Source: a virus. Taken from it: a DNA stretch of 40,932 bases. Positions 18,030 to 40,932 of this stretch are shown here, one piece after another (positions within the stretch are counted from its first letter, which is position 1; every line of letters starts with the position of its first letter). The DNA lies in IMG/VR virus record IMGVR_UViG_3300025168_000196, positions 1 to 40,932 of that record; one strand, 5' to 3'. The position numbers were made by a program, and so were the translations under genes. Under the pieces are notes generated by a model. That model was not told where the DNA came from and ran no database searches. It was given only the letters and a program-made list of their open reading frames with translations.

Positions 18030-18284
18030 ATGAGACTATCAGATATCATTCTTAATGAAGCATATATAGATAAACTAGCCAGTCAGTTTTCAAAGGCTAA
18101 CCCTCACCTAGACTTTTATGTTAAATTCGGTGAAAGAATAGATGTTAAAGGATCTCAGCAAGATTTAATTAACTTTGGCACTAAACACGATGGTAAAAAA
18201 TTTGGAGAGTACCTAGACTATGAGGTGTTTTCTATAGATGATGATGAAAGAGGAGAAATAGTTAGAATAGTAAAAATAAAATAA
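18030..18284 (+). CDS. Leader-bearing small protein (84 aa)
   Basis: Begins 'MRLSDIILNEAYIDKLASQF': the shared leader with Leu-Asn-Glu10|Ala11, a good match to a T4-type prohead protease site. The remaining ~74 residues alternate short helices and strands ('FYVKFGERIDVKGSQQDLIN', 'EVFSIDDDERGEIVRIVKIK') and look like one small alpha/beta domain. No known family is recognised. It lies between the Cys-rich micropeptide and another leader-bearing gene. A capsid-internal role is inferred only from the leader. Confidence 0.62.
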   Translation: MRLSDIILNEAYIDKLASQFSKANPHLDFYVKFGERIDVKGSQQDLINFGTKHDGKKFGEYLDYEVFSIDDDERGEIVRIVKIK

Positions 18285-21151: not shown

Positions 21152-21848
21152 TAAACAATCTTTTGTTTGGGATACTACAGCCAGTAACCCTAAGAAAATA
21201 AAAGAACTTACTACAAAAGGATTTAATGTATACATGGTAATGGTATATGCTCATCCTATGGTATCATATGTTTCAAACTTTAAGAGAGAGAGAAATGTTC
21301 CTGGATCAGCTGTATTTTCTACTTGGAGAAACGTTTATCAGTTAATTCAAGATTATGCTAAGATGACTAAAGGTAACTTTTCTTTATTTGTAAATGCAAG
21401 ACCTGGATTTGAAAAAGAGGTAAAGGGCTTTGATACTGCAGCAAAAAATGGTGCACAAGGTATAAAAGACTACCTACAGAGATACTCAGAAGAAAATAAT
21501 ATAGAAGGATCTTCTTTTAGAAGCCCTATAAAACTTTCTGATGAGGAAAATCAAGAGTATATTAATGCAACATCTCATATGGATTACGATAGAGAAAACT
21601 ATAGTGAAGATAGAGCTTTAAAAAAATATTTTCAAGATTGGTACAAAAAGAATGGAGTAGGACCTGGAAATGATAAAATGACCGCTAAACTAAAAAGCTA
21701 CAGAACAAGTAAAGAAAAAGCAAAGAAAAAAGATGAAGAGATATTAGAGAATATAGCTGATATGCTTTTTAGTCCTATTTTTAACTCAAGATTAGTTAGC
21801 TCAACACCAAGAGAAATTGACAGTAAACTACAGGACTTTTTAGCATGA
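20922..21848 (+). CDS. Leader-bearing P-loop kinase, zeta-toxin-like
   Basis: A 308-residue protein. The start is fixed by the shared leader 'MIKLSDLILESTSG', with Ile-Leu-Glu10|Ser11. A Walker A motif follows at once, 'VVVMAGGSGAGKSHLLRQL' (Gly22-Ser29). Next come 'LINPDKYVED' and 'FVWDTTASNPKKIKEL', where Asp and Arg positions suit a zeta-toxin/polynucleotide-kinase-like phosphotransferase. The C-terminal third is charged and helical and not recognised. It could phosphorylate a nucleotide, nucleic acid end or sugar nucleotide. The first 230 bases overlap the lipoprotein gene in another frame. It overlaps the next gene by ATGA. The leader predicts packaging in the capsid and injection of a matured enzyme. 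Confidence 0.75.
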   Translation: MIKLSDLILESTSGPKVVVMAGGSGAGKSHLLRQLDLKSLPLINPDKYVEDPTHPAYNKLGPAARAADQEAQDLVDSKQSFVWDTTASNPKKIKELTTKGFNVYMVMVYAHPMVSYVSNFKRERNVPGSAVFSTWRNVYQLIQDYAKMTKGNFSLFVNARPGFEKEVKGFDTAAKNGAQGIKDYLQRYSEENNIEGSSFRSPIKLSDEENQEYINATSHMDYDRENYSEDRALKKYFQDWYKKNGVGPGNDKMTAKLKSYRTSKEKAKKKDEEILENIADMLFSPIFNSRLVSSTPREIDSKLQDFLA

Positions 21849-23062
21849 TAGCACTATACCCAGGAGCTTTTAAACCACCTCATAGAGGACACTTTGAAAT
21901 AGTACAAAGACTACTTGACGGTACTATTAAGGGTAAGGTATATGGACTGGATAACTATAAACAAGCCGGTAATAATGTATTAGACAAAAGCTTTGATAAG
22001 GTAGAAAAGGTAGATAAGGTTGTTATCTTTATAGGGGGTAATGAAAGAAACGGTATTAACAAAGAGCAGTCAGCTGCTATATGGGAAATATATAAAAAGT
22101 ATATACCTAATTTAGAAATAATAACAAAGGAAGGTAATCCTATGACTCTTGCAAGGGATTATGCTTCTGAAAATAACGATAAAGAATTTTACTCAGTTAC
22201 AGGTATAAGAGAAAAAGATGACCTTAGAGATTTAGGGAGAATATCAGCATTTAAAAAAACCCCTAATGTTAAAGGATTATCAGTTACTTCAAATGATAGT
22301 AATGAAATCAGAGCTACTAATTTTAGAAAAGCTATTCTAAGTGGTAATTTAGATAAAGTAGCAGATTTTTTTCCTGCAATGTTAAATAGACAGGAAATGT
22401 TAAAAATATTAAATATGTTAAAATCAAGCATTGTATCCGAACAAATGAAGGATGAGTTGAAAAATGTTATTACTGATATCTTTACTACTAAAGATGATAT
22501 TGAAGAATACAATAAAGGCACACAAGGTACACATATACAACCACAAGCTGCTATTAAATCAAAAGATAAAGCACATTTGATTACTCTTTATAAAAGAATA
22601 CAGAGTCAGATAGGAGGAGATAATATTTCTATTAGGTTTATGCAAGACCATATTAGAGTAAGCATCGTTGATGAGTGGAAAAAAACCGGTTTCGACTTTA
22701 CACCTTTTATGGGATCTATTCTTGAATATATGATAGATCAAAAAATGAATATATCACCACTGCCAGAAATAAAAATTAAAAAAGATGTAGCCGAAGCATC
22801 AAGCGTTTTTGGTCGAACTGCTTATTATAATCCAGAACTTAAAGAAGTAGTACTCTACACTGAAGGTAGACACCCTAAAGATATTTTAAGATCTTTTGTG
22901 CATGAAATGGTTCATCATATACAAAATCTGGAAGGTAGATTAAAAGGCTACGGAACTACAAACACTAATGAAGATGAAGCATTAGTTGAAATTGAAAAAG
23001 AAGCTTACATGGTAGGCAATATTACTTTCCGAAATTGGGAAGATAAAATTAAAAATCAATAA
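21845..23062 (+). CDS. HxGH nucleotidyltransferase fused to zinc metallopeptidase domain
   Basis: A 405-residue two-domain protein. Residues 1-170 are a cytidylyl/adenylyltransferase-like domain: 'ALYPGAFKPPHRGHFEIVQR' with the HxGH motif, 'IGGNERNGINKEQSAAIWE', and 'SNEIRATNFRKAI' in place of the ISxTxxR motif. A helical linker follows. The last ~90 residues are a metallopeptidase-like domain: 'SFVHEMVHHIQNLEGRL' with His353-Glu354-xx-His357, and 'EIEKEAYMVGN' as a possible third ligand. This fusion resembles one I recall from marine phages, without known function. No N-terminal leader is present, presumably because the HxGH strand must start at residue 3. It is sandwiched between a kinase and a phosphatase gene. 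Confidence 0.75.
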   Translation: MIALYPGAFKPPHRGHFEIVQRLLDGTIKGKVYGLDNYKQAGNNVLDKSFDKVEKVDKVVIFIGGNERNGINKEQSAAIWEIYKKYIPNLEIITKEGNPMTLARDYASENNDKEFYSVTGIREKDDLRDLGRISAFKKTPNVKGLSVTSNDSNEIRATNFRKAILSGNLDKVADFFPAMLNRQEMLKILNMLKSSIVSEQMKDELKNVITDIFTTKDDIEEYNKGTQGTHIQPQAAIKSKDKAHLITLYKRIQSQIGGDNISIRFMQDHIRVSIVDEWKKTGFDFTPFMGSILEYMIDQKMNISPLPEIKIKKDVAEASSVFGRTAYYNPELKEVVLYTEGRHPKDILRSFVHEMVHHIQNLEGRLKGYGTTNTNEDEALVEIEKEAYMVGNITFRNWEDKIKNQ

Positions 23063-23067
23063 AGGTT

Positions 23068-23610
23068 ATGGGAAAATTAGTAGATTTATTAGAAGCGTAT
23101 CCGCTTCCTGAAGAAAAAGTAAACCCTCCTTATCAAATATACTGTGATATGGATGGAGTATTAACAAATTTTGAAAAGCGTTTTGAGCACTTTACAGGAA
23201 AACATCCTCAAGAGTATGAAAAAGAATTTGGAGTAGAAGCATTTTGGCATTTAATAGATGTTAAGGTAGGAGTTAAATTTTGGGTAGGCATGGACTGGAT
23301 GCCTAAAGGAAAAGCACTGTGGGACTTTATAAAACATTACAATCCCAAACTATTAACCTCTCCTTCTAGACATGATACATCAAGATTAGGAAAAAATCTT
23401 TGGGTTAAAAATAAACTAAGCCCTAAGCCTAAAACTATATTTGCTTTTTCTAAAAGTAAACAAAATTATGCAAACGAAAATAGTATATTAATCGACGATA
23501 AACCGTCAAACATAGATGAATGGCAAGCAGCCGGTGGTATTGCTTTTAGAGTTAGAAAAGGCGATATTAATGATGCACTAAAAGGATTGAAAGAGTTAGG
23601 TTATGAGTAA
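23068..23610 (+). CDS. HAD-family phosphatase (5'-nucleotidase-like) with leader
   Basis: A 180-residue HAD-superfamily protein. Motif I is 'YCDMDGVLTNFE' (Asp27 nucleophile, Asp29), motif II is in 'PKLLTSPSRHD', a Lys lies near 'FAFSKSKQNYA', and motif IV is 'SILIDDKPSNIDEW' with an Asp pair. The layout resembles 5'(3')-deoxyribonucleotidases, which remove phosphate from nucleoside monophosphates, though polynucleotide phosphatases share the fold. The N-terminus 'MGKLVDLLEAYPLPEE' fits the leader pattern with Leu-Leu-Glu9|Ala10, so the enzyme may be packaged and trimmed. It starts 5 bases after the nucleotidyltransferase gene and overlaps the next by 8 bases. Confidence 0.8.
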   Translation: MGKLVDLLEAYPLPEEKVNPPYQIYCDMDGVLTNFEKRFEHFTGKHPQEYEKEFGVEAFWHLIDVKVGVKFWVGMDWMPKGKALWDFIKHYNPKLLTSPSRHDTSRLGKNLWVKNKLSPKPKTIFAFSKSKQNYANENSILIDDKPSNIDEWQAAGGIAFRVRKGDINDALKGLKELGYE

Positions 23611-25371: not shown

Positions 25372-25563
25372 ATGCCATCAAAATTAAAACCATCTGCAAA
25401 AAAATACGTAAGGGATGCTAGAGGTAAAATGACTAAAAAATGGTCATGGGAACACTATACTCCTGCTACTACATCAACAGTTGAACTAAAAAAGCTATTA
25501 GAAAATTCTAGTTATAAAAGAAAAAAGAATATTATACTTAAAGAACTAGCAAAAAGAGCATGA
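25372..25563 (+). CDS. Small basic conserved phage-type protein (63 aa)
   Basis: A 63-residue, strongly basic protein beginning 'MPSKLKPSAKKYVRDARGKM', with 'KWSWEHYTPATTSTVELKKL' and ending 'IILKELAKRA'. I recall similar short proteins in marine T4-like phages, function unassigned. High Lys/Arg content suggests nucleic-acid or ribosome contact. It overlaps the next gene by ATGA, so the two are probably co-translated. Confidence 0.6.
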   Translation: MPSKLKPSAKKYVRDARGKMTKKWSWEHYTPATTSTVELKKLLENSSYKRKKNIILKELAKRA

Positions 25564-26816
25564 ATTTAATTCAACTTATACTTGAAGGTATTACTTATAA
25601 GATTCCAAATTTCAATTTTGAATGGGAGGAAGCAATAAGATACCCTGAGTTTAAGAAACTTGGTAAACAAGCTTGGATTAGTATAGCATCTAAAGGAAAA
25701 GGAGTTTCTATTGATTCAGCTAAGGATATTAGCAACACAGATGCAAACAAACCGGGCTCTTTTAAACTACTTGATAAAGATAAACAGAAAAGAACTCTAC
25801 TTCAAATTAAATCCGGTACTGTTGAGATGCCAATCATTGCAGTATATCCAGATGGCCATAAAGAGTTATTAGGAGGTAATACTAGACTTACAGCTTTGAT
25901 GCATAAGAACGGTAAAGCTACTGTTTGGATGTTTGATGTACCAGAAGATATTTCTACTAGTTTAAATGAGGATTTAACCTTATCTCCTTTTGATTATGAC
26001 CAAGATGGAAATGAATCTAGAATTAAGAGAGATATTAATAATAAAAAAGGATGGAGAAGATTAGGATCTAAATCTTCCCAAAATATAGCTATTAAAAAAT
26101 ACTTAGATAAATATACTTCAGGTTATAAATGGAGTAATCCTCCTAAATCAGAAAAGTTTTCTGATGAAAATGATAAGATGTACAAAACTCCTTACATAAT
26201 GTATGTACACCTACTTCAAACATCAGAAGGAAAAAATAATATAATTGATGCTTTAAGTGGTATGGCTGTTAATGAGCCTGATAATACTATGAAAAAGATC
26301 TTACAAGCTTTATTTTTAGTCTTTTCAAATAAAGAAGATCAATTTAAAAAAGTATATACTCAATATAAAAGTATGATTGAGAAAAATGCTAATGATGATT
26401 CAGGAGCTAATCCATTTGCTGCTTTAAAATATGCAAGTGAAAATTTCAATAATAAAGTAGAAATATTTAATAAATTTGTAAGAAATGGTTGGAGTGCTGG
26501 AAAATTTAATTTAAATGAAGCAATCGTAGGTGATAAAATCGTTTGCGATAACTGTGGATGGGAATGGAAAATTAAAGATGGTGGAGATGATTTATATATG
26601 TGCCATAAATGTGACCATAATAATACACCAACAGCACTTGAAAACTTTAAAGACGGTAAAAAGAAAGGTAAATCTAAACCAGGCAGAGTAAAGAAGTCCG
26701 GTGCTAGCTGTAATGGATCTGTTACGGATCTCAGAAAGAAAGCTAAAAATGCATCTGGAGAAAAAGCTAAAATGTACCACTGGTGTGCTAACATGAAAGG
26801 CGGAAAGAAAAAATGA
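25560..26816 (+). CDS. Leader-bearing ParB-like protein with zinc ribbon and basic tail
   Basis: A 418-residue modular protein. The leader 'MNLIQLILEGITY' has Ile-Leu-Glu9|Gly10. Residues ~75-135 resemble a ParB/sulfiredoxin-type nuclease or NTPase fold: 'MPIIAVYPDGHKELLGGNTR' followed by 'LTALM'. A helical middle follows. At Leu318-Asn-Glu320|Ala321 there is a second possible prohead-protease site, directly before a zinc ribbon (Cys329, Cys332, Cys348, Cys351) and a basic end with 'GRVKKSGASCNGSVTDLRKK' and 'YHWCANMKGGKKK'. That end module recurs, as I recall, on different phage proteins. I infer capsid packaging and release of a DNA-binding C-terminal piece. Overlaps the next gene by ATGA. 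Confidence 0.68.
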   Translation: MNLIQLILEGITYKIPNFNFEWEEAIRYPEFKKLGKQAWISIASKGKGVSIDSAKDISNTDANKPGSFKLLDKDKQKRTLLQIKSGTVEMPIIAVYPDGHKELLGGNTRLTALMHKNGKATVWMFDVPEDISTSLNEDLTLSPFDYDQDGNESRIKRDINNKKGWRRLGSKSSQNIAIKKYLDKYTSGYKWSNPPKSEKFSDENDKMYKTPYIMYVHLLQTSEGKNNIIDALSGMAVNEPDNTMKKILQALFLVFSNKEDQFKKVYTQYKSMIEKNANDDSGANPFAALKYASENFNNKVEIFNKFVRNGWSAGKFNLNEAIVGDKIVCDNCGWEWKIKDGGDDLYMCHKCDHNNTPTALENFKDGKKKGKSKPGRVKKSGASCNGSVTDLRKKAKNASGEKAKMYHWCANMKGGKKK

Positions 26817-27463: not shown

Positions 27464-30400
27464 ATGACATATCAAGAATTAAAAGATCGCTTATCAAAAT
27501 GCGAATATACTTTGACTTGTATCAAAGACGGTAATTCTAAGATTAAAGATACTAAAACTGTTAAAAAATTAGAACTACTTAAGGAATCTCTTGAGACTCA
27601 ATTAAAAGAGATGGATGTTAACGATCCAGTTATGATGAAGCTAAGATCTCTTAAGGCTAAGATAGGTAAGAAAAAAGGAATCTCTAAATGGCAATCAATT
27701 AGAAGTAATCAGCTTGTGGTTAGACTTAAGGCTAAGAGAGCTCAAGTAATGAGAGATATGGAACAGGAAGCTGAACCAGAAGGAGGTCCAATAGCCGATA
27801 AATATGGAGATTTACTAAATAAGATTGATGCTGCATTAGCAAAAGCATCAGGTACAGAACCAAAAAGCTATAATGATACTTTTAAAGAAGGCTGGAACGA
27901 CCAAGACGATGTATTTGCTTTAGGGTACGATCTAGATGCTACACAGTACTTAGTAGACTATCTTGAATCTAAATATAAAGCAGGAGTTGACTACGAATTA
28001 CATATCGGTAGAGGAGACACACACCCAAATGCTATATCTCTTATGAACCCAGATATGGAACAAGATAAAGAATTAGGTAATCTATTAATGTCAGCAGGAG
28101 ATAATGAAGAAACTGATTACCAATCAGGTAGAGAACTTGAAAAAGACTATAATGAAGGTCTTTGGGCCAATATTAATGCTAAGAAAAAAGCAGGAAAGAA
28201 ACCATCTCATGGTAACTCTAATGCTCATAAAGATGCAGTTAAAGCCGGTAATAAATTAAAAGAAAATATATCTTCAAGATTTATAAAAAAATACCTTTCA
28301 AGGGCTACACCTGAAGTTTTTTTAGATGTAGAAGATATAGAATCATATAGTGATAGAGATAAAGCTATACTTATATTCCTAGATGAAGAACATGGAGTTA
28401 CGATAAGTGATAAATTAGCAAAAGGTATTAAAGATAAATCATCAGCTGATATAATTAAATACTTTAAGGATAGAGATTATGAGTATATGTCCTATGGTGT
28501 AATGAGAAAACAATTAGGTGTTCCTGCAGCTACAGGATTTACATGGGATGAATCAGGATCACCTGGAGATAATGGTGAATATTGGTACGCTTATAAAGGA
28601 AGGCAAAGGGATTTAAATAAAATATGGAGTAAAAATTACCCAGAACTTAATATTCCTAAGTTTAATAAGGCCAATTATGACACAATATCTCTAGTAGCAA
28701 AAGAGTTAGATGATTACTATCGTGATATAGCAAGAAAGCAAAAAGGAATAGATTTAGAGGTTAGCTATGAAGAGTATGCTGATATGTGGGTTCAAGCCTT
28801 AAAAGATAAAAAATTACTTAATGGCAGATTAGTTAAAGAACAAGATAGAGCTCATAAATTATCTAAAAATGAAATTAGCCTTATAGCTCACGAAGCCGGT
28901 AAAGCTGTTATTAGTGCAATATTAAAATCCGGAGATGAAATTAGCTCAGCTAAAGTTAAAGACATATATGCATCATCTTTATCAGGAAATAACCCAGAAG
29001 CATTTACTGTACATATAATCTTTAAAAACGATAAAGAAGATAGCTATAGATTTCAAATACAAGACGATAAACTTTATTTTTTAGCACCGAACAACAAAGA
29101 CATTGTTATATCTGATGTAGGAATTAAACCTTCTGGTGAAGCAGTAATAAATAAAGAATTAATTAAAAACGAAATGTTAAAATACTTTAATAGTATGAAC
29201 GAATTAGAAGATAAAGGAATGGTAGTCACTAAAGATTCCAAAGAAGCTGAAAAATTAGCTAAAAAAGGAGTTAATGTCAAATTAACAACTGAAGGACCTT
29301 ATCAAACAACTTATGTAAAAGTAGCTCAAAGCGACTATAAAAAAGCAATGGCTATAATAGATCGAGCTATAGACAGTGAATATGTAAATACTGATATAGT
29401 TGATGATGATGGAGATGGTAATGTAATTATATACTTCAACTTTACAACAGCAATGACTGGTCATCCACACTATAATCCGGATGTAGATCCAGCAGAGTTT
29501 ATATACGACTTATCTATGGACTTACAGTCTCGTGGTGTGCAAGTAGTAGGCGCTAGTCACGATATTGAGGAAGGAATGTCAGATAAAGAATTTGCTGATG
29601 CTCAAGAAGCAGATAGGTTAGCTGATCACCCAGAAAGAGATAAAATTTTAGCAATACAAAAATTAATTGCTAAAGAAAAAGGTGTAAAAGAAGACAAGTA
29701 CGATGATATGGTAGCTTCTGACAAAGATATTCCTGACGGTAAAAGGAAAGGAGCAGCAAAAGCTTTAAGAATGGTAGACAAAGGAGCTTCTTATGATAAA
29801 GTAAAAAAGTACTTAAAACAAGAGAGAGTCGTTGAAGTAAAAAATGAATTTGAAACTGCAGATGAGTGGGCTGATGATGGTAGATATTATATACAGGTTG
29901 AAGATAATGGAAAAGGAGGAGGATGGATTATAGATCCTAATCATTCAAAATACACACCAGGTACTAAATTAATTTTAAATGTTTTAGACGAACAAGACTA
30001 TAGATTTGAAGATGCAGAAGATTATTTTCTTCAAGTTCAACGTATGGAAGCACTTAAAAATGAAGCAGAAGCTGAACATCTTATAAATCGTTACGGAACT
30101 GATTTAGTTGATGAATTAGAGCTTCATATAGAATGGCATGAAACAATGTTTCCAGAAGATATTGAATACGATGACGACGATGATGTAGATGAAAGCCGTT
30201 ATACTAAACTTAGAGATTATTATAAAAAGATAGATCAAATGAATCAGCAATCAAAAAAAGACTTCGAAAAAAATCCAGGACATGGTAATGTAGCTGAACC
30301 TTCAAAACAAGTAGATGTAAATGAAGAATCTGAGATAGATAAGATTACTAAAGCAAAGAGACTTATTAAACAACAAGCTCCTGCTATGAATAAATTACCT

Positions 30401-32164
30401 CAAGACGATCCTAAAAGAAAGTCATTTATTGATAGAGTAAAACAAATAAACCAAAAGCATAAAGAGTTACTAGACAATGAAGATGATAAAATATCAGGAA
30501 CAGGTAGAGATCAAGAGTTAGATGAAGGAAGAGGAGATTTCGATGATGTATTAAAGGCTGTACAAAATATGTCTAACAATGATGACATATCAGAAAAAGA
30601 AGCTGCATTAGAAATAGTATATGCTTTAGCAGATAAATTTAAAATACCAGTTGATAAGAATCTAGAAGACTATATGGAAGAAAGAGTAGTTAAAGAAGGT
30701 AACGGGTTGTGGGCTAATATTAGAGCAAAAAGAGCTAGAGGAGGAAAACCAGCTCATAAGAATTCTAATGCTCATAAAGATGCCGTTAAAGCTGGTGAAA
30801 AGATTAATAAGACTAACGAATACGGAGGTAGTCAAGGAGCTATGGAGTTAGAAGATTTATTTGGAGCATTAGGATATAGAGACGGATTCGATGAATTTAT
30901 AGAAGATAATCCTGGAGCAGTAGAAGCACTCCATAGTTGGATTAGTAGTATACCAGAATTTAGAAAAAAATTAGGTGCTGAATTTTCCAATTCAGAGTTA
31001 GAAGACATGGGGTTATATGATATTGCAGGCTACGATGATGATGATAATGTGGATGAATATGACATCTACCACAAGCAAGATTGGAGTGATGATCCGAAAG
31101 AAAAAGAAGCTAGAAAGAATAATGCAGATAGGAAAAAGATAAATAAAGATACTTTAGATATAGACGAAGTAAAAGTAGGAGACACACTTACTAAAGACGG
31201 TAAAAAAGGAAAGGTTACTAAACTTTCTGATACTCAAGCTACTGTAGATTTTGGAAACGGAGATGTATACGGTATAGCACATAGTAGAATTAAAGGTAGA
31301 AAAATAGCAAAAGAAGTTATTGAACCATACAAAGGAGTAGGTAAAAAGGACCCTAATAATATACGTCAAATGCATTATGATGATTCAAGAGAACAGTTTT
31401 TCGATTATTTGGAAACAGCTTTTTCAATTGCACAGGTAAAAAAACTCTTAGCTAAAGATCATACTAATGTAGAATTTATTACCACTACAATGCTACCTGC
31501 TATTTTTAAAAGAGATGATCAACCTTTCCCTCCTCGTTTTGTACAGCAGATGGGATCAAGAGAAACCTTAAGAAGAGATTGGGTACGGGTAGCTATAGAT
31601 ATGTACCCTGAACCTAAAGTTACTCCTAATGCTGTTAATCCAGATGGATCTGAGTATACGGGTGATACCCCAGTCTACAATAGTGCAGGAAAGCAAGTTA
31701 AAGAAGCAGAAGCTAGACCAATGCCAGATACTATCTTACGTGGATACAATGCTAATGTAAAAAACGCACAATCTATGGCTTCAGCACTTTTATCTCTTTT
31801 TCATCAAATAAACGATAAAGAACCTACAGATTTTACATCTAACGGAAATATAAAAAGAGTTTTAAAGTTACTTAATTACGTTGCAAAAGCACCGGACACT
31901 GAAACAGATGAACCAGTAAAAGAAGCTGGACCTGGATTCAAACACGATTGTGCTGCTAAAGTAGTACATGAAAAATACGGTAAAGGTAACTGTATACCAA
32001 AAAAACATACACTAGTCAAAGAAGGACAGAAATACGTAGTAACTCATTATGATGTTCTTTTTGAACAAGGAAATAAGAGAGTAAAGAATATACCAGTTAG
32101 TGAACTAGAAATCAAAACTTCAAACGAACACTGGCATAAAGGGTATAAAAAGAAAAAAAAATAA
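27464..32164 (+). CDS. Giant modular protein with repeated modules and many protease-type sites
   Basis: A 1566-residue acidic protein that reads as a string of short domains. 'LWANI(N/R)AK(K/R)' basic modules with 'NSNAHKDAVKAG' occur at residues ~232-262 and ~1081-1112. A possible SH3-like segment, 'EVKVGDTLTKDGKKGKVTKL', lies near 1235. The C-terminal module has 'GFKHDCAAKVVHEKYGKGNC' and 'THYDVLF', ending in Lys-rich sequence. Possible prohead-protease sites lie between segments: LKE267|N, IEE703|G and LDE1021|G, plus the weaker VKE1078|G, VKE1414|A and VKE1487|A. The N-terminus ('MTYQELKDRLSKCEYTL') is not the standard leader. I propose a polyprotein of capsid-internal pieces. A plain scaffold or structural protein is the alternative. 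Confidence 0.65.
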   Translation: MTYQELKDRLSKCEYTLTCIKDGNSKIKDTKTVKKLELLKESLETQLKEMDVNDPVMMKLRSLKAKIGKKKGISKWQSIRSNQLVVRLKAKRAQVMRDMEQEAEPEGGPIADKYGDLLNKIDAALAKASGTEPKSYNDTFKEGWNDQDDVFALGYDLDATQYLVDYLESKYKAGVDYELHIGRGDTHPNAISLMNPDMEQDKELGNLLMSAGDNEETDYQSGRELEKDYNEGLWANINAKKKAGKKPSHGNSNAHKDAVKAGNKLKENISSRFIKKYLSRATPEVFLDVEDIESYSDRDKAILIFLDEEHGVTISDKLAKGIKDKSSADIIKYFKDRDYEYMSYGVMRKQLGVPAATGFTWDESGSPGDNGEYWYAYKGRQRDLNKIWSKNYPELNIPKFNKANYDTISLVAKELDDYYRDIARKQKGIDLEVSYEEYADMWVQALKDKKLLNGRLVKEQDRAHKLSKNEISLIAHEAGKAVISAILKSGDEISSAKVKDIYASSLSGNNPEAFTVHIIFKNDKEDSYRFQIQDDKLYFLAPNNKDIVISDVGIKPSGEAVINKELIKNEMLKYFNSMNELEDKGMVVTKDSKEAEKLAKKGVNVKLTTEGPYQTTYVKVAQSDYKKAMAIIDRAIDSEYVNTDIVDDDGDGNVIIYFNFTTAMTGHPHYNPDVDPAEFIYDLSMDLQSRGVQVVGASHDIEEGMSDKEFADAQEADRLADHPERDKILAIQKLIAKEKGVKEDKYDDMVASDKDIPDGKRKGAAKALRMVDKGASYDKVKKYLKQERVVEVKNEFETADEWADDGRYYIQVEDNGKGGGWIIDPNHSKYTPGTKLILNVLDEQDYRFEDAEDYFLQVQRMEALKNEAEAEHLINRYGTDLVDELELHIEWHETMFPEDIEYDDDDDVDESRYTKLRDYYKKIDQMNQQSKKDFEKNPGHGNVAEPSKQVDVNEESEIDKITKAKRLIKQQAPAMNKLPQDDPKRKSFIDRVKQINQKHKELLDNEDDKISGTGRDQELDEGRGDFDDVLKAVQNMSNNDDISEKEAALEIVYALADKFKIPVDKNLEDYMEERVVKEGNGLWANIRAKRARGGKPAHKNSNAHKDAVKAGEKINKTNEYGGSQGAMELEDLFGALGYRDGFDEFIEDNPGAVEALHSWISSIPEFRKKLGAEFSNSELEDMGLYDIAGYDDDDNVDEYDIYHKQDWSDDPKEKEARKNNADRKKINKDTLDIDEVKVGDTLTKDGKKGKVTKLSDTQATVDFGNGDVYGIAHSRIKGRKIAKEVIEPYKGVGKKDPNNIRQMHYDDSREQFFDYLETAFSIAQVKKLLAKDHTNVEFITTTMLPAIFKRDDQPFPPRFVQQMGSRETLRRDWVRVAIDMYPEPKVTPNAVNPDGSEYTGDTPVYNSAGKQVKEAEARPMPDTILRGYNANVKNAQSMASALLSLFHQINDKEPTDFTSNGNIKRVLKLLNYVAKAPDTETDEPVKEAGPGFKHDCAAKVVHEKYGKGNCIPKKHTLVKEGQKYVVTHYDVLFEQGNKRVKNIPVSELEIKTSNEHWHKGYKKKKK

Positions 32165-32165
32165 A

Positions 32166-32810
32166 ATGAGAAAAGCTGAATTAGAAAATATCATATTAGA
32201 AGCTTATAAAGAGGTACTTAACGAAAGTTTATTAGACCAATTAAACGAAGAAGAACCTGAAGAAGAGCCTGCCCCTGAAGAAGCACCTGATATGGATGCC
32301 CCTAAAGATACTGTTCTAGAAGATGCAACCGATAAAATACTAGGTAAGTTTCCCACAGTTAAAGCCGCTTTAATAAAACTACAGTCAGAACAATTTAAAG
32401 AGTTTGTTGAATCAATAGATTGGGTTTCCCCTAGACCTAGTTCATTTAGAATTAACCTTAAAAACGGCCAAGACTACATTCTTAAATGGATGGGAGATGG
32501 ATTTCAAGCTCAAATTCAAGGTAAAAGATACTATATTAATAAGATAGATGATTATCAGCAAGCATTAGATAAGTTAGAAGTACTTTATAGAGAGTCACCA
32601 ATGAAAGGAGCTGGAGAAGGAGAACCTGCTGATACTGACACCGGAGGTGGTGGTGGTGGAGGAGGAGGCGACTTTCCCGGCGGAGATGGAGGAGGAGGAG
32701 CTGGTGGAGGAGAACCTGATATTCCTTTACCGGGAGGAGATGATGGAGGAGGAGCTGATTTATCAGATGAACCTGTAGACTTTGAAGCAGGAGAAGAACC
32801 AGACGCATAA
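32166..32810 (+). CDS. Leader-bearing acidic protein with Gly-rich tail
   Basis: A 214-residue protein. The N-terminus 'MRKAELENIILEAYKEVLNE' has two stacked sites, Ile-Leu-Glu12|Ala13 and Leu-Asn-Glu20|Ser21. A Glu/Pro-rich segment follows. Residues 55-145 form a compact domain with 'FKEFVESIDWVSPRPSSFRI' and 'NGQDYILKWMGDGFQAQIQG'. The last 65 residues are a Gly/Asp-rich low-complexity tail ('GGGGGGGGGDFPGGDGGGG'). The acidic character and position upstream of terminase suit an internal head or scaffold component. It ends in five consecutive in-frame TAA codons. Confidence 0.65.
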   Translation: MRKAELENIILEAYKEVLNESLLDQLNEEEPEEEPAPEEAPDMDAPKDTVLEDATDKILGKFPTVKAALIKLQSEQFKEFVESIDWVSPRPSSFRINLKNGQDYILKWMGDGFQAQIQGKRYYINKIDDYQQALDKLEVLYRESPMKGAGEGEPADTDTGGGGGGGGGDFPGGDGGGGAGGGEPDIPLPGGDDGGGADLSDEPVDFEAGEEPDA

Positions 32811-32822: not shown

Positions 32823-32832
32823 TACTAAACAA

Positions 32833-33144
32833 ATGAATAATAATTTTGATCTTAAGAAATTCTTAGCAGAGAATAGAGCTAACAACAGTAAAGCAATCAA
32901 CGAAATAGACCCAGACCTTTTAAGAAGAGCACAAGGACCAGCTCCTAAAAATGCAGCTGCTAGTTTAGCAAAAAGAAAAAAAGAAATAGACGCAAAACGT
33001 GCTGGTAAACTACAAGTAAGTAAGGGATCTAACGCTGAACAAGAGCAGAAAGTAATTGATTTTGCTAATGCTGCAATCGCACTTATGGACGAACAACCAG
33101 GTACAAGCGCAGAAGCTGCTTTACAAACGGTATTAGAAGCATAA
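32833..33144 (+). CDS. Leader-bearing small Ala/Lys-rich protein (103 aa)
   Basis: I place the start at ATG 32833 rather than the in-frame ATG 32782, because the longer form would run through the end of the upstream gene and add only an Asn-rich stretch. From 32833 the protein starts 'MNNNFDLKKFLAENRANNSK', giving Leu-Ala-Glu13|Asn14, a leader like those of its neighbours. The middle is basic and Ala-rich ('AAASLAKRKKEIDAKRAGKL'); the end is 'AEAALQTVLEA', with another Leu-Glu|Ala-type site. A small capsid-internal protein is inferred. Its TAA overlaps the next ATG by one base. Confidence 0.65.
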   Translation: MNNNFDLKKFLAENRANNSKAINEIDPDLLRRAQGPAPKNAAASLAKRKKEIDAKRAGKLQVSKGSNAEQEQKVIDFANAAIALMDEQPGTSAEAALQTVLEA

Positions 33145-34388
33145 TGAACCTTATAGACAAAGTCATACTAGAATGGTCCTATAAGACCAGAAAAGGATAC
33201 CCTGACTTTAATAGTCAAGAGGATATGGCTTTGTTTGAATCTATATTTGGTTTTGACCCTACCCTTATAGAATTAAAAAAGTTCAACTACAATATACTCA
33301 CACCAGAAGCACAGGAAATAGCTACTGTACTTATAAAGATTTTAAATATAGAAAAATCACAAATCCAACCTGATACTAAGAATCATGTCGTTATTTACGA
33401 CGATGCTCGCCCAGCGTTGATTAAAAAGTTAGAAGACGACGGTAGATATGGACCTCCCGGTGGAGTACGTAACAATGTTTTTAAAGTAGGAAAAGTTGCT
33501 ATAATTTTTAAACCAGATAAGACTAGTGGAGAATACTTCGACTTAAAACCACAAAAATTAGGATTAACTCTCGATAGTAGAGTAAAATTAAAAATTTCAA
33601 AACAGGAATTACTAAAAGGGATTGATGCTGCTTCAAAACTTAGTGAAGAACAGAAAAAAGTTATAAAGTATTTAACTAATAAGAAAAATAGACCTACTGA
33701 TGAAGAGGTAGTAAGTGCTTTCGAAAACAAATATTTCTATAATGAATTTTTTAAAAACCTTGGTGAAGTCTTAGGAGCTTATAATTACGGTGAAACTATA
33801 GGAGCAGATGAAGTAGTTTTCCCTAAAGCAGGAAATTACCCTCTAATAGATTACATTCTTTATAAAGGAGAAGACCAAATACAGGTAAGCGCAAAATCGT
33901 CTAAAAGTCCAGGTAATACCGTTAAGCTAGAAAGTTTAGAAAGACTAGTAAAAAGCAAAGGAGGTAAAATTGACACTAATTTACAAAAAATTATTACTAT
34001 AGTTAATTCTAATACTGTCGTTACAGGAGCTTTTGAACTTATAGATGAATTCGGTTCTAATACACTTAAACAACAAAAAGAAGAGTACCTAGAAGAGTTC
34101 ACTACATTTCCTTCTCTCGATAAAGAAGGGTATGATGAAATAGCACACCAAAAGAGAATCCTACTAGAGAAGCAAATTATAAAAGAGCTTAATCAAGATT
34201 ATAATTTTTCTGATCTGTTTAATCAATACGTTGCTGTAAAGTACGTAAAATACGACATTACTATCCCAGGACTGGAAGAAAATTCAAAAGTTATAGAAGG
34301 AGGTCAATTTTATACCCCATTGAAGAGTAAGAATTCAAAAAGACATGACAGTGATAAAATTGGTTTAGATATAAAAGAATCTAAGTAG
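33144..34388 (+). CDS. Leader-bearing protein, possible restriction-type nuclease
   Basis: A 414-residue protein starting 'MNLIDKVILEWSYKTRKGYP', with Ile-Leu-Glu10 followed by Trp, which is unusual after the cut. The central part contains 'AGNYPLIDYILYKGEDQIQV' leading into 'SAKSSKSPGNTVKLESLERL'. An Asp about 11 residues before a Gln-x-Ser-Ala-Lys strand resembles the D-(x)n-(E/Q)xK core of restriction-endonuclease-fold enzymes. That assignment is tentative. The gene lies directly upstream of terminase. If packaged and injected, a nuclease or nuclease inhibitor would be a sensible cargo, comparable in concept to the T4 internal protein that counters host restriction. No other family recognised. 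Confidence 0.6.
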   Translation: MNLIDKVILEWSYKTRKGYPDFNSQEDMALFESIFGFDPTLIELKKFNYNILTPEAQEIATVLIKILNIEKSQIQPDTKNHVVIYDDARPALIKKLEDDGRYGPPGGVRNNVFKVGKVAIIFKPDKTSGEYFDLKPQKLGLTLDSRVKLKISKQELLKGIDAASKLSEEQKKVIKYLTNKKNRPTDEEVVSAFENKYFYNEFFKNLGEVLGAYNYGETIGADEVVFPKAGNYPLIDYILYKGEDQIQVSAKSSKSPGNTVKLESLERLVKSKGGKIDTNLQKIITIVNSNTVVTGAFELIDEFGSNTLKQQKEEYLEEFTTFPSLDKEGYDEIAHQKRILLEKQIIKELNQDYNFSDLFNQYVAVKYVKYDITIPGLEENSKVIEGGQFYTPLKSKNSKRHDSDKIGLDIKESK

Positions 34389-34402: not shown

Positions 34403-35977
34403 ATGGCACAAGACATAAAAAAGATCATAGCACAGGAGTACATCAAGTGCGCCAAAGATCCGGCATACTTTATGAAGAAGTATTGCTTTATTCAACATCC
34501 TACTAGAGGTAGAATACTATTTGCCCTTTACCCGTTTCAAGAAAAAATACTACATTTATTTAGAGATAATCAGTATATAATTACACTTAAGTCCAGACAG
34601 CTAGGTATATCAACTCTATCAGCTGCTTATAGTTTATGGTTAATGCTTTTTCATAAAGATAAAAACGTCCTAGCACTAGCAACTACACAAGCAACAGCTA
34701 GAAATCTTGTAACTAAAACTATTTTTATGTACGATCAGCTACCTAAATGGTTAAGGTTAAGAGCTGTAGAAAAGAATAAGTTATCTTTAAGATTAAAAAA
34801 TGGGTCTAAAATCACTGCCAAATCTTCTAACGCTGATGCAGCAAGATCAGAGGCAGTATCATTACTATTAATTGATGAAGCAGCATTTATAGACAATATA
34901 GATGAAACATATACTGCAGCACAACAAACGTTAGCTACCGGTGGACAATGTATGGCACTGTCTACTCCTAACGGAATAGGTAACTGGTTTCATTTAACAT
35001 GGGAAAAGGCTGAAACAGGTGAAAACTCCTTTTTACCTATAAGATTACCATGGACGGTGCATCCAGAAAGAAATGAAACTTGGCGTCAACAGCAAGACAG
35101 AGACTTAGGCCCTAGAATGGCCGGTCAAGAATGTGACTGCGATTTCTTATCCTCCGGTGACACAGTATTTGAACCTGAAGATATAAGTTTTTACGAAGAA
35201 ACGTACCAAAAAGACCCTATGGAGAAAAGAGGAGTTGATGGTAATTTATGGATTTGGGAAGGAGTAGACTACAGCAAATCGTATATGGTTGTAGCGGATG
35301 TTGCTAGAGGAGATGCTACGGATTATTCTGCATTTCATATATTTGATATAGAAAACTGTGTACAAGTAGGTGAGTATAAAGGAAAGATATCTCCTAAAGA
35401 TTTCGGAAATGTACTTGTAGGAATAGCAGCTGAGTATAACGATGCACTATTAGTTGTTGAAAATGCTAATATAGGATGGGCTACAATAGAACAGGTAATG
35501 GAAAGGGAATATAGAAATTTATACTATAGCCCTACTAATAATAGAGACACAGTAGAATCCTATATGAACAAATTTGAACGTGATAAATTGGTACCCGGCT
35601 TTACTATGTCGGCTAAGTCACGTCCATTAGTAATCGCTAAAGCGATCGAGTATATTAGAGAACATTCTGTGCATGTACAATCAAAAAGGCTAATGGCTGA
35701 GATGAGAGTATTTATATGGAAAAACGGTAAAGCACAAGCTCAAGATAGATATAATGATGATTTGATTATTTCTTTTGCAACTGCTTTATATGTAAGAGAT
35801 ACTGCATTAAGACTAAGACAACAAGGTATGGACCTAGCTAGAGCTTCATTATCTTCGTTTACCAACCTTAATGCCAAGAACCAAGCTGTCATTAAAACAG
35901 TTGGTAATCAAGTAAAAAATCCTTATATTGTTAATACACCAGGAGGCGAAGAAGATATCTCTTGGTTATTAAAATAG
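34403..35977 (+). CDS. terL: Terminase large subunit (DNA packaging ATPase/nuclease)
   Basis: A 524-residue TerL of the T4 gp17 type. The ATPase has a deviant Walker A, 'TLKSRQLGISTLSA' (64-71), Walker B 'SLLLIDEAAF' (154-159) and coupling motif 'ALSTPNGIGN'. The RNase H-like nuclease has 'VVADVARGDATDYSAF' (Asp299), 'LLVVENANIG' (Glu353) and 'DRYNDDLIISFA' (Asp452/Asp453). It cuts concatemeric DNA and pumps it into the prohead through the portal encoded next. It starts 14 bases after the leader-bearing putative nuclease gene. No small terminase is seen in this window. Confidence 0.95.
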   Translation: MAQDIKKIIAQEYIKCAKDPAYFMKKYCFIQHPTRGRILFALYPFQEKILHLFRDNQYIITLKSRQLGISTLSAAYSLWLMLFHKDKNVLALATTQATARNLVTKTIFMYDQLPKWLRLRAVEKNKLSLRLKNGSKITAKSSNADAARSEAVSLLLIDEAAFIDNIDETYTAAQQTLATGGQCMALSTPNGIGNWFHLTWEKAETGENSFLPIRLPWTVHPERNETWRQQQDRDLGPRMAGQECDCDFLSSGDTVFEPEDISFYEETYQKDPMEKRGVDGNLWIWEGVDYSKSYMVVADVARGDATDYSAFHIFDIENCVQVGEYKGKISPKDFGNVLVGIAAEYNDALLVVENANIGWATIEQVMEREYRNLYYSPTNNRDTVESYMNKFERDKLVPGFTMSAKSRPLVIAKAIEYIREHSVHVQSKRLMAEMRVFIWKNGKAQAQDRYNDDLIISFATALYVRDTALRLRQQGMDLARASLSSFTNLNAKNQAVIKTVGNQVKNPYIVNTPGGEEDISWLLK

Positions 35978-36003: not shown

Positions 36004-37908
36004 ATGGCGGATAAATCCTTATTTGGCAGACTTAAGACACTTTTTTCAAACGATGTAGTAATTAGAAACGTCGGAGGAAAAGAACTTAAAATTGCTGATG
36101 TTAACAAAATACAGAATACCGGTAAATATCAAACGAATTCTTTAGTAGATAGGTTTAGTAGACTCTATATCTACAATAATAAGAATATATATAATCCTAA
36201 TATTAACTATCAGACATTAAGGATACAGTTATATTCGGACTATGAAGTAATGGACACTGATCCAATTATAGCTTCTGCTTTAGATATAATAGCTGACGAA
36301 GCAACGGTTAAAAACGATCAAAACGAAATCCTAGCAATACAATCTTCAGATGAAAATATTCAAAGAGTACTTTACAATTTATTTTACGATGTACTAAATA
36401 TAGAATTTAACTTATGGTCTTGGACTAGGAATATGGTTAAGTATGGAGACTTCTTCTTAAAATTAGAAATCTCTGAAAAGTTTGGAGTATACAATGTGCT
36501 ACCTTACACCGTATACCATATGATAAGAAGAGAAGGAGAAGACCCAGAAAATCCTTCTAAAGTGCTTTTTCAATTAGATCCAGACGGACTAGCCTCATCA
36601 CAGAGTACTAACTATTTACCAAGAAGACGTAAAAAAAATGAAAAGATAATAGATTTCGATAATTACGAAATAGCTCACTTTAGATTAATATCTGATACTT
36701 CCTACCTTCCTTACGGTAGGTCTTACTTAGAACCAGCTAGAAAGATATATAAACAAGTTACTTTAATGGAGGATGCGATGTTAATTCACCGTATAATGAG
36801 AGCACCAGAAAAGAGAATGTTCTATATAAATGTAGGTAACGTTCCACCAAATGAAGTAGAGCAGTTTATGCAAAAGACTATTAACTCTATGAAAAAGACT
36901 CCTTATGTAGGAGAAGATGGTCAATACAACCTTAAGTTTAATATGCAAAATATGATGGAAGATTTCTACCTACCTGTAAGAGGAGGAGATACTTCTACTA
37001 GAATTGAAACTACTAAAGGTTTAGAATACGACGGTACCACCGACGTTAATTACCTACTTAATAAAATGTTTGCTGCTCTTAAGATACCTAAAGCTTATTT
37101 TGGGTATGAAGGAGATTTAAGCGGTAAAGCTACATTAGCAGCAGAAGATATAAGATTTGCTAGAACAGTAGAAAGAGTGCAAAAAATAATGGAATCAGAA
37201 CTAACTAAGATAGCTCTGGTACACTTATACTCTCAAGGATTCTCAGGAGAAAGTTTAACTAATTTTGAAATTAAGCTTACTACTCCGTCTATTATATTTG
37301 AACAAGAAAAAGTAGCATTACTTAAAGAAAAAGTAGATTTAGCTGCTCAAATGAAAGATAGCAAATTATTCTCTTCAGACTATATTTATGAATCTATATT
37401 TAATTTATCTGAAGATCAATATATGGAAATGAGAGAGCTCGTCAGAGAAGATTCTAAAAGAGCATTTAGAATAGCTCAAATAGAAGGTGAAGGCAACGAT
37501 CCTGCTAAGTCAGGAACTACATACGGTACTCCACATGACTTAGCTTCTATGTACGGTAGAAGAGCTACTTCTACACCAAAAGGCGGTGGACCTGATGATG
37601 TACCAACCGGTTATTCAGAAACACCTAGTGAACCAGAATGGGGAGAACCAGGACCTGAAGGTGGTAGACCTACAGAAAAAGCTTCTGTTTACGGTACTAA
37701 TGATGCTTTAGGAGGACGTGATCCTTTAGGTGTACACGGCATGAAAGGAGGCTACCCGTCAGATAATGACAATGTAGCTGAAAACTTATCTACACAGGCT
37801 GTTTATCATAGAAATAAACAAGATCTTAAAAATATAGTTTTTAAAAAACAAGCAACTAAGGAATCTAAGTTGCTAAGTGAAGACAATATTAAAGATTTAG
37901 AGAATTAA
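36004..37908 (+). CDS. Portal protein (T4 gp20-type)
   Basis: A 634-residue protein directly after terminase. Portal-like features include 'YSDYEVMDTDPIIASALDII' near residue 80, 'NLWSWTRNMVKYGDFFLKLE', 'PYGRSYLEPARKIYKQVTLM', 'RAPEKRMFYINVGN' and 'KMFAALKIPKAYFGYEGDLS'. These fit the gp20-like portal family, in which twelve subunits form the DNA channel at the special vertex and nucleate head assembly. The last ~130 residues are Gly/Pro-rich and flexible ('RRATSTPKGGGPDDVPTGYS'), which may hang inside the head or be trimmed by the prohead protease. Gene order matches T4 gene 20. Confidence 0.9.
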   Translation: MADKSLFGRLKTLFSNDVVIRNVGGKELKIADVNKIQNTGKYQTNSLVDRFSRLYIYNNKNIYNPNINYQTLRIQLYSDYEVMDTDPIIASALDIIADEATVKNDQNEILAIQSSDENIQRVLYNLFYDVLNIEFNLWSWTRNMVKYGDFFLKLEISEKFGVYNVLPYTVYHMIRREGEDPENPSKVLFQLDPDGLASSQSTNYLPRRRKKNEKIIDFDNYEIAHFRLISDTSYLPYGRSYLEPARKIYKQVTLMEDAMLIHRIMRAPEKRMFYINVGNVPPNEVEQFMQKTINSMKKTPYVGEDGQYNLKFNMQNMMEDFYLPVRGGDTSTRIETTKGLEYDGTTDVNYLLNKMFAALKIPKAYFGYEGDLSGKATLAAEDIRFARTVERVQKIMESELTKIALVHLYSQGFSGESLTNFEIKLTTPSIIFEQEKVALLKEKVDLAAQMKDSKLFSSDYIYESIFNLSEDQYMEMRELVREDSKRAFRIAQIEGEGNDPAKSGTTYGTPHDLASMYGRRATSTPKGGGPDDVPTGYSETPSEPEWGEPGPEGGRPTEKASVYGTNDALGGRDPLGVHGMKGGYPSDNDNVAENLSTQAVYHRNKQDLKNIVFKKQATKESKLLSEDNIKDLEN

Positions 37909-39025: not shown

Positions 39026-40762
39026 ATGAGAACATACACAGTAACAGAAAAGTACAGAGCCGTTAACGAAGGAAAAATGGCTAAATCAGAATTTGTAAGA
39101 CAAATGAGACTTGGTTACCCTGAGCATATCACTCAGTGGAACGGATTCAAAGACACAGTACAAATTCTTAAGAATAGAGGACTTCTTTTTGAAGAGATAA
39201 AACCTGTAGTAGTTGAAGAGAAGATTGATTCAATGAAATTGCCGTACAGTTTAGAAGCATTAGACAGAGGTATTAGACATGAGTTTGCAGAAGCTAAGAT
39301 AGAATATCACGCAGGTGCTAACATTAATATGGAACAGTACAACGATGCTTTAAATAAAGCTAAAGCAAATTTAGATAAGGACCCTATGCACTATTTAAAC
39401 ATAGTTGCTGGAAACGATAAGCACGTTGATAAAAACGATCAAATGAGACCAGTATCAGACAAACCGGATGTATTTAACGGCCTTAAAAAAGCTGATTTAA
39501 GAGAAGCTAAAAAAATGCTTAAAGAAGGAAAGATGAGTGATCTAGCAGAAAAACTAGGAGTAGATCTAGGCAGATTGCAAGCTGCATCAGATAGATTAAG
39601 AGAGATGGAAAGAGAAGAAGCTGCTGAAACTGCCGGTAAGGTAGAAGCTATGAAAGCCGTAATAGATGAAGAACCAGATGAAGTAATGAATATCGATAGA
39701 TTAGGAAGAGAAAAAGTAGATCACGATAGTAAATATACTAAAATAAAAGAAGAAGAACAAGGTCATATGGTAGATGAACACGAACATATGTTCTTTAGTT
39801 TACTCTTTAATAAGAAATATGACGATATACTAGATGACTATATGTCTAGTGATCAATTTAAAGGAGACGAAAAAGAATTACAAGATAAAACTGGAGAAGC
39901 TAATGTATTCGATGCTGCATATATGGACGAGTGGGAAGACGCTATCAAGCAATTTGAAGCCAATAACTACGATTATAATGAAGGAATCGAAGATGTAATA
40001 GACCCAGCTAACTACGCCGTAATAGGACATAACTATTTATCAGGATTTGGTAAAGAGCACACTCTAACCCCAGATCAATTAGAAATGTTAGGACGTAAAA
40101 TAGTAGATCAGCTATATAAAGGAGATTTTAAAGCAGCAATGGCTAAACATGGTGAACCGATAAATAAAGAAGTAGTCGAAAAGAAAGGTACAGATCATGA
40201 TAAAGATGGAGATATCGATGGAGATGATTATAAGCATGCTAAAGATAAAGCTATAAAAAAAGCAATGGGGAAAGACGAAAATCAAGACAAGCAGTTAAAA
40301 GAAGCTATTAAGAGAATTGTTAAAAAAAGCTTACTTAAAGATACTTTAAATGAAGCTGCTACTAATCATTTAGCTGCTATGGCAGATACTTATGGAGACT
40401 ATAAAGGTATGACAGTCGTATTAAATGATCTTCAAAATATAGTAACTGATATAGAAAGTTATTATGCTAAACAAAAAGATAGATTAGAAGGAGTATTTAA
40501 AAAAGTAGGAGAAATACAAAATGAAGAAGGATTTAAAGTAGGAGGGTTTTTAGCACCTGCTATAGAAAGCGCTTTTGTAAAAGATTCAAGACACTTAGGA
40601 GGTAATAGATTTATGAAAGGTGTAGAAATACCTAAAGTAAAAGTTGCTAAGTTTAATAACTTAAGACAAGAAGAAGCACCTCTAGAAGCAGAAACAGCTC
40701 CTAAAGAAACTATATTCGGTATAAACGAAAAAGGAGAGTTTAAATTAAGAAAAGACTTATAA
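39026..40762 (+). CDS. Putative prohead scaffold/core protein
   Basis: A 578-residue, highly charged, helix-rich protein just upstream of the prohead protease, where T4 has core and scaffold genes 67/68 and 22. Residues 1-50 include 'VRQMRLGYPEHITQWNGFKD'. The middle is acidic coiled coil ('LGRLQAASDRLREMEREEAA'). An EF-hand-like loop 'DHDKDGDIDGDDY' starts at Asp390 (Asp390/392/394/396/398/401). A protease-type site, Leu441-Asn-Glu443|Ala444, precedes a C-terminal ~135-residue domain ('NHLAAMADTYGDYKGM', 'FKVGGFLAPAIESAF'). In the model, the core is digested before DNA packaging. Scaffold assignment rests on composition and gene order. Confidence 0.68.
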   Translation: MRTYTVTEKYRAVNEGKMAKSEFVRQMRLGYPEHITQWNGFKDTVQILKNRGLLFEEIKPVVVEEKIDSMKLPYSLEALDRGIRHEFAEAKIEYHAGANINMEQYNDALNKAKANLDKDPMHYLNIVAGNDKHVDKNDQMRPVSDKPDVFNGLKKADLREAKKMLKEGKMSDLAEKLGVDLGRLQAASDRLREMEREEAAETAGKVEAMKAVIDEEPDEVMNIDRLGREKVDHDSKYTKIKEEEQGHMVDEHEHMFFSLLFNKKYDDILDDYMSSDQFKGDEKELQDKTGEANVFDAAYMDEWEDAIKQFEANNYDYNEGIEDVIDPANYAVIGHNYLSGFGKEHTLTPDQLEMLGRKIVDQLYKGDFKAAMAKHGEPINKEVVEKKGTDHDKDGDIDGDDYKHAKDKAIKKAMGKDENQDKQLKEAIKRIVKKSLLKDTLNEAATNHLAAMADTYGDYKGMTVVLNDLQNIVTDIESYYAKQKDRLEGVFKKVGEIQNEEGFKVGGFLAPAIESAFVKDSRHLGGNRFMKGVEIPKVKVAKFNNLRQEEAPLEAETAPKETIFGINEKGEFKLRKDL

Positions 40763-40766
40763 AAGA

Positions 40767-40932
40767 ATGGCACAACTATTAGTAGACGTTACCCCATTTA
40801 AATCGGTACTTAGAGAGTCTAAAGAAAGACCAGGAGTATACGAAGTTGAGGGTGTTATGCAAAGAGCAGTTGCGGAAAATCAAAACGGTAGGACTTATTC
40901 AAAAGCTATATTAGAAAGAGAAGCTTCTAAAT
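40767..40932 (+). CDS. Prohead protease (T4 gp21-type), 3'-partial
   Basis: The ATG at 40767, 4 bases after the scaffold stop, opens a frame that runs off the window end after 55 codons. 'MAQLLVDVTPFKSVLRESKE' is followed by 'GVYEVEGVMQRAVAENQNGR' and 'TYSKAILEREASK'. The last stretch resembles T4 gp21 ('EGIFMQAEVVNRNKRLYPKR', then 'ILEKAVK'), as I recall it. The catalytic His and Ser lie beyond the window. Gp21 is a serine protease that cleaves core, capsid and internal proteins after (L/I)-x-E. Its presence supports the leader-processing proposal. The major capsid gene would be expected downstream. Confidence 0.82.
   Translation, partial: MAQLLVDVTPFKSVLRESKERPGVYEVEGVMQRAVAENQNGRTYSKAILEREASK

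Follow-up and report, generated by a model that had tools for sequence, protein, structure and literature searches.

The 1566-aa open reading frame at 27464-32164 (+) of a 40.9-kb virus record (40,932 nucleotides, hereafter the window) is probably the gene of a mosaic polyprotein that would supply the capsid with exchangeable cargo after being cut by the phage's own prohead protease; from the sequence comparisons we put the probability of this reading at about 0.7. The reading draws on mosaicism of the protein, a joint motif found in two phage groups, leader-bearing equivalents of single units, a gene fusion that keeps a leader and a protease encoded in the same gene cluster. Roughly 18-20 small units would be made as one polyprotein, drawn into the prohead via an N-terminal module with a putative targeting role, and cut there by the S77 prohead protease at [LIVM]xE/ joints (a slash marks the predicted cut). 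The freed pieces would be retained as internal head proteins, presumably functioning as such, packed with the DNA and perhaps injected, and among related phages the units would move as cassettes to and fro between the polyprotein gene and separate genes in its vicinity that have leaders.

The frame is a real, single and uninterrupted one. Near-identical copies occur on two other viral contigs from one metagenome (L001, residues 1-1204, 99%; L002, residues 831-1566, 100%). The window also encodes a large terminase (34403-35977) and a T4-like portal (36004-37908); judged by the portal, the closest cultured phage is Flavobacterium phage vB_FspM_immuto_2-6A (immuto below), with 72% identity over the whole portal protein, and the source of the 1566-aa protein is a marine T4-like virus of bacteria. 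The modules of the protein, and the genes that bear on its interpretation, are as follows.

27464..32164 (+): whole gene of the putative mosaic polyprotein, 1566 aa
27464..27610 (+): residues 1-49, conserved N-terminal helical module ending QLKE49/M, candidate capsid-targeting part
27611..27889 (+): residues 50-142, DxNDPV module, basic, pI 9.7
27890..28156 (+): residues 143-231, F-GYDLD module, phrog_23411
28157..28264 (+): residues 232-267, basic LWAN module, copy 1, pI 10.3
28265..28840 (+): residues 268-459, NISSRF module, starting at LKE267/
28841..29203 (+): residues 460-580, domain shared by most relatives; alpha/beta type in the L010 model
29204..29572 (+): residues 581-703, module with IEE703/ at its end; its fold is ferredoxin-like in the relative L010
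29573..30193 (+): residues 704-910, divided by VKE743/ and VVE791/ into three candidate modules, the last ending VDE910/ (cuts at 743, 791 and 910 placed from the motif and a few relatives)
30194..30526 (+): residues 911-1021, two helical modules with VNE954/ between them and LDE1021/ at the end
30527..30697 (+): residues 1022-1078, GRGD module; [LIVM]xE ends 15 of 17 distinct upstream contexts
30698..30820 (+): residues 1079-1119, basic LWAN module, copy 2, pI 10.7
30821..31168 (+): residues 1120-1235, FGALGY acidic module ending VDE1198/, then a short stretch ending IDE1235/
31169..31924 (+): residues 1236-1487, VKVGD module (ending near VIE1287/), a module with few relatives to VKE1414/, and AEARP to VKE1487/
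31925..32164 (+): residues 1488-1566, constant C-terminal module GPGF..HDCAA..NEHWHKGYKKKKK, phrog_11470/22379
32166..32810 (+): next gene, leader MRKAELENIILE/AYKEVLNE/; in phage immuto it is fused to the polyprotein and its leader is retained within
39026..40762 (+): gene between portal and protease, with module IDPANY..GRKIVDQLYKGDFKAAM common to relatives' polyproteins
40767..40932 (+): first part of the prohead protease gene, which belongs to family S77 in relatives; the gene runs on beyond the window end

The original prediction named six cut sites, LKE267/N, IEE703/G, LDE1021/G, VKE1078/G, VKE1414/A and VKE1487/A. All six are present and backed by comparison with relatives, and the list can be extended by LKE49, VKE459, VKE743, VVE791, VDE910, VNE954, VDE1198, IDE1235 and VIE1287 as further candidates. 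Also present are the two copies of the LWANI.AK module (residues 232-267 and 1079-1119) and the Cys/His/Lys-rich C-terminal module (residues 1488-1566) that it had pointed out. Its proposal that basic modules would be released as DNA-binding peptides holds for a minority of modules only. The pI of the whole protein is 5.4 and that of its modules ranges from 4.1 to 10.7, many of them being acidic small domains of pI 4-6, and by computed pI most are acidic or near-neutral; strongly basic modules are limited to the two LWAN copies, residues 50-142, residues 1236-1287 and the C terminus. Charge does not support a general DNA-binding role of the units. Nor did we see the separate acidic linkers that had been thought to carry the sites, which sit at module ends instead.

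Related loci were collected by a scan of viral contigs, which yielded 68, with relatives from about 50 contigs, and dereplication left 33 polyproteins of 263-1566 aa. These have the C-terminal module in common, and the full-length ones mostly share the N-terminal module as well, together with a domain that corresponds to residues about 450-600; between the common parts, units are lost, gained, duplicated or reordered among relatives. A joint was defined as the meeting of two segments that are adjacent in one protein and more than 35 residues apart, or reversed, in another; this definition is blind to the motif, which was scored within 3 residues of the interval. [LIV]xE was found at 59% of 144 joints, compared with 26±3.6% under random placement (0/1000), and at 59% of the 63 joints that remained after similar ones were clustered, compared with 25±5.5% (0/2000 shuffles). 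At these 63 joints the control motifs [LIV]xD (11 vs 24%), [LIV]xK (32 vs 30%) and [LIV]xQ (6 vs 9%) showed no enrichment; among joint controls with altered spacing, [LIV]E was likewise not enriched (25 vs 18%) and [LIV]xxE weakly so (32 vs 20%). About 40% of the dereplicated joints have no [LIV]xE, some of them being intra-module joints or having another xxE. As an illustration only, since the anchors were picked by eye after the pattern had been seen, distinct contexts upstream of module starts contained [LIVM]xE in 119 of 154 cases, another xxE in 24 and neither in 11, with the motif in 7/7 upstream contexts of the TDxSF module. BLAST segment ends were also tried as joint positions; they gave weak enrichment, many ends lying inside modules at indels, and were dropped for the joints between far-apart segments. 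The raw number of [LIVM]xE matches in the window protein is at chance level (28 vs 26.4±4.4 in shuffles) and was rejected as evidence for a polyprotein. Judging from the comparison of relatives, the non-random feature of [LIVM]xE is solely its placement at module joints.

Structure prediction for the relative L010 agrees with this placement. The AlphaFold model (975 aa, mean pLDDT 72.4) contains several confident small domains, and the joint sites at 171, 353, 511/516, 649, 717, 776, 848 and 897 fall between them, at most 3 residues from stretches of pLDDT<50 and nearly all in coil; no single continuous fold spans the sites in this model. Other matches of L010 (405, 472, 740 and 913-956) lie away from low-pLDDT stretches, in or next to ordered segments. 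The structural evidence comes from L010, the model of window residues 700-1566 being poor (mean pLDDT 41.6). Some motif matches of the window protein likewise fall within folded modules, for example at 1503-1547 in the C-terminal module, where ordered structure is predicted in L010, and a match by itself is not to be taken for a cut site. The core of the original prediction, a polyprotein with prohead-protease sites between its modules, is strongly supported by the comparison of relatives, all six sites included, with cleavage as the proposed step; its DNA-binding part holds for a minority of modules. As to function, Pfam gave nothing above cut-off for the window protein, its PHROGs matches are all unnamed and PADLOC returned no match. 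With L010, no PDB sequence match was obtained through the alignment profile (a weak test, as the profile kept 132 positions only) and no Foldseek match below E 0.001 with the model; the sole match by VIA-align was a generic ferredoxin-like one for one module (Z up to 8.9).

A protease of the expected kind is encoded in the same genome. The last 166 bases of the window, from 40767, are the start of the next gene, MAQLLVDVTPFKSVLRESKERPGVYEVEGVMQRAVAENQNGRTYSK, which matches the start of the relatives' ORF carrying the S77 prohead protease domain (T4 gp21 family); PF03420 was above cut-off in 12 of 16 relative contigs. In eight relatives the propeptide of the capsid protein ends ..NQAKQIVAE/A or /Q, the position expected from T4 gp23. 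It is plausible that this prohead protease tolerates V at P3, and the VKE sites that had been ranked as weaker need not be weak, because the propeptides end QIVAE/. Hydrophobic-x-E is found at exposed unit boundaries both by the joint tests with their controls and by the coil and low pLDDT at joints in L010.

Units of the polyprotein also occur on their own, behind short leaders. The basic LWAN module is a complete gene of 52-57 aa in several relatives; that of L042 (52 aa) reads MKNFIQALKE/LQE/EKPGLWANIRAKRARGEKPAHKNSNAHKDAVKAGNKLKP, the stand-alone form being MKNFIQALKE/LQE/EKPGLWANI; L053 and L051 carry comparable genes, and in the gene of L017 the module is present twice. Unit 143-231 stands alone in L073 and L074 as the gene MKLSKIILE/NYDDDSLFTFGYDL, in which N follows the predicted cut, and the NISSRF unit (268-459) forms the start of a separate gene in L003 and L004, after MAYKYKIKE/NISSRF or MEYKYKIKE/DISSRF. 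Units lie inside neighbouring genes, directly after those genes' leaders, in L020, L021 and L046, and the DxNDPV module of L013 and L055 is inside a different neighbouring gene, directly after ..LI(N/T)E/. The N-terminal module of the polyprotein itself (49 aa) contains LKE41 and LKE49, and short leaders take its place in L064 (MAKDKITIKE/) and in immuto (MKKLIRIVE/). In immuto, the syntenic immuto26A_192 (841 aa) unites the putative polyprotein with the homologue of window gene 32166-32810; the leader of the absorbed gene, KSELKEIMLE/AYIEVLQE/, is still present at the fusion point. A leader was scored when a hydrophobic pair, one arbitrary residue and E followed each other somewhere in residues 1-22 of a protein. 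Such leaders are enriched: the window has them in 10 among 34 genes, where 3.3 are expected (P 0.00025), and immuto in 14 among 28, where 2.5 are expected. Leaders such as MIKLSDLILE/S and MNLIQLILE/G, which start many head-cluster genes, resemble T4 capsid targeting sequences. The leader-bearing head-cluster proteins listed here are candidates for further packaged proteins.

15980-16417: leader-bearing head-cluster gene
18030-18284: leader-bearing head-cluster gene
20922-21848: leader-bearing head-cluster gene, the leader standing before a predicted ATPase/kinase
23068-23610: leader-bearing head-cluster gene of an enzyme-like protein, a 5'-deoxyribonucleotidase; leader by a looser pattern only, the immuto homologue having a full leader
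25560-26816: leader-bearing head-cluster gene
32166-32810: leader-bearing head-cluster gene, next to the polyprotein gene
32824-33144: leader-bearing head-cluster gene
33144-34388: leader-bearing head-cluster gene

A similar architecture is found in the cyanophage protein T4-GC119 (phrog_727; e.g. SSM2_109 and Syn9 gp114), which lies upstream of terminase in many cyanophages and is likewise built of small mosaic units set apart by [LIVM]xE. In 16 cultured cyanophage proteins the motif was present at 61% of 36 joints, compared with 23±7% (0/2000). Some unit types are shared with genes of Flavobacterium-type phages, whereas others (DUF192, DUF6321 and Cys-rich basic units) differ and long homology with the window protein is lacking; T4-GC119 counts as an analogue in architecture rather than as an established homologue along its length. 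Its GenBank entries in S-SM2, S-SSM5 and P-SSM4 read 'similar to Synechococcus phage S-SM1 protein' as a note. Over the portions of the records covered, that note is also attached to gp3, 13, 14, 15, 18, 19, 20, 21, 23, GC190 and a few others, and is absent from gp16, gp17, gp22, gp41, gp43-47, uvsX, uvsY and nrdAB, although gp16 and gp17 exist in S-SM1. The published virion study gives 41 proteins for S-SM1 virions, gp14, gp21 and GC190 among them (PMC3037559), which suggests that the note marks the S-SM1 virion proteome and that T4-GC119 is in the virion. As a counter-point, Syn9 gp114, at the T4-GC119 position, has no structural label in its record. Residues 339-441 of SSM2_109 (L096 5698-7824) are a DUF192 domain, a unit flanked by [LIVM]xE motifs; packaged cargo may thus include a family known from cellular genomes. 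In Prochlorococcus phage P-HM1, PHM1_163 (L070 3629-4936), labelled 'possible cytitidyltransferase', combines two modules of the window protein, the C-terminal one and one of LWAN type.

Could the gene instead encode a component of the prohead core or scaffold, like T4 gp22, gp67 or gp68, cut many times so that its fragments can exit the head? Core proteins and propeptides are well known to be cleaved at multiple sites (PMC5694885), and both the head-cluster location and the modules in common with the gene between portal and protease would suit such a role. We nonetheless regard it as unlikely: between their protease and capsid-protein genes, relatives and immuto have another gene that is acidic and scaffold-like, the L010 units are confidently predicted small domains rather than disordered or coiled scaffold, units stand alone behind leaders as cargo does, and among the cyanophages the virion note is on T4-GC119, not on gp22. 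Slightly less probable again is an uncut, beads-on-a-string protein of the virion or the cell interior, in which [LIVM]xE at joints would be a relic of gene fusion or a favoured flexible linker. The retention of the absorbed gene's leader in the immuto fusion is what such a relic would look like, and the chance-level motif count also fits; yet two phage groups, and relatives that have diverged strongly, keep the joint motif but not its D, K and Q analogues, and a relic without function should decay.

We give very little credence to a polyvalent protein (Iyer et al. 2017) that would enter the host in one piece and be cut there by other peptidases. Such proteins also have many unrelated domains in one phage protein beside virion genes (PMC5512222), but the joints fit the motif of the phage's own prohead protease, and Pfam detected no embedded peptidase domain in the window protein or the mosaic relatives scanned. 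The cleaved cargo polyprotein is the reading that we prefer.

Parts of this reading have known counterparts. T4 internal proteins are small and variable, have a short N-terminal leader ending in a gp21 site, are packaged in the prohead core and are delivered with the DNA (PMC3012670, PMC7411985), and IPI, IPII, IPIII and Alt, with their capsid targeting sequence, resemble the leader-bearing stand-alone modules described above. The T4 proteins, however, are encoded by one gene each, whereas the window gene places many units in a single frame and has the protease motif at their joints; family searches gave no link between T4 internal proteins and these units. Polyvalent proteins combine 2-15 unrelated domains per phage protein, are predicted to be packaged and processed, and were likened to polyproteins by the authors (PMC5512222). 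The window protein likewise has many distinct domains and is encoded near virion genes; among the families covered by Pfam, none was found in common. Polyvalent proteins would be processed by embedded peptidase domains (such as MPTase), whereas here a separate prohead protease would act at a repeated motif. In phiKZ and SPN3US head proteins the prohead protease cuts at AxE or SxE, at several sites per protein (PMC5694885), but these multiple sites are in propeptides (in T4, in core proteins) and not, as proposed here, between retained domains. Our literature search, partly keyed to 'polyprotein' so that other wording may escape it, found no prohead-protease polyprotein of this kind, and the literature examined contained no description of T4-GC119 as a polyprotein. 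What we did not find in the literature searched is the combination, that is, folded exchangeable units delimited by prohead-protease motifs.

We see about an even chance that an exchangeable-cassette cargo system operates in at least two marine T4-like groups (the Flavobacterium-type phages and the cyanophages), with shuffling updating the arsenal. Under the rule that this would imply, a small domain of any kind would be packaged and released as a separate protein once it is flanked by two prohead-protease sites or preceded by a leader that ends in one. In the T4 precedent a handful of small head proteins protect the incoming DNA; if our reading is right, abundant marine phages carry many more head proteins, from one polyprotein gene, and tailed phages would have a polyprotein logic that uses the capsid-maturation protease. 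The cut motif would then be a simple finding rule, turning dozens of 'unknown' small marine-phage domains into candidate packaged effectors. The idea is directly testable, as cultured phages exist (Flavobacterium phage immuto and Synechococcus phages S-SM1, S-SM2 and Syn9) and so do their hosts.

Three further genes have features of their own. The gene between portal and protease (39026-40762; L032 8268-10592 and L013 12858-14651 in relatives) is mosaic too, has the units GRGD, YTKEKLL and IDPANY in common with the polyprotein, and occupies the position of T4 core genes 67/68. In immuto26A_204 (L095 21627-22868), the scaffold-like gene before the capsid protein, there is a near-perfect tandem duplication of the unit GFEQWLDSVSAQMDKFGKNNPTIQAIEKAV..GHGMTKGHK, set between [LIVM]xE motifs. 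The protein encoded at 21845-23062 has a nucleotidyltransferase-like start (YPGAFKPPHRGHFEIV) and a zinc-peptidase-like motif, HEMVHHIQN, near its C terminus, and its immuto counterpart is annotated as NadR.
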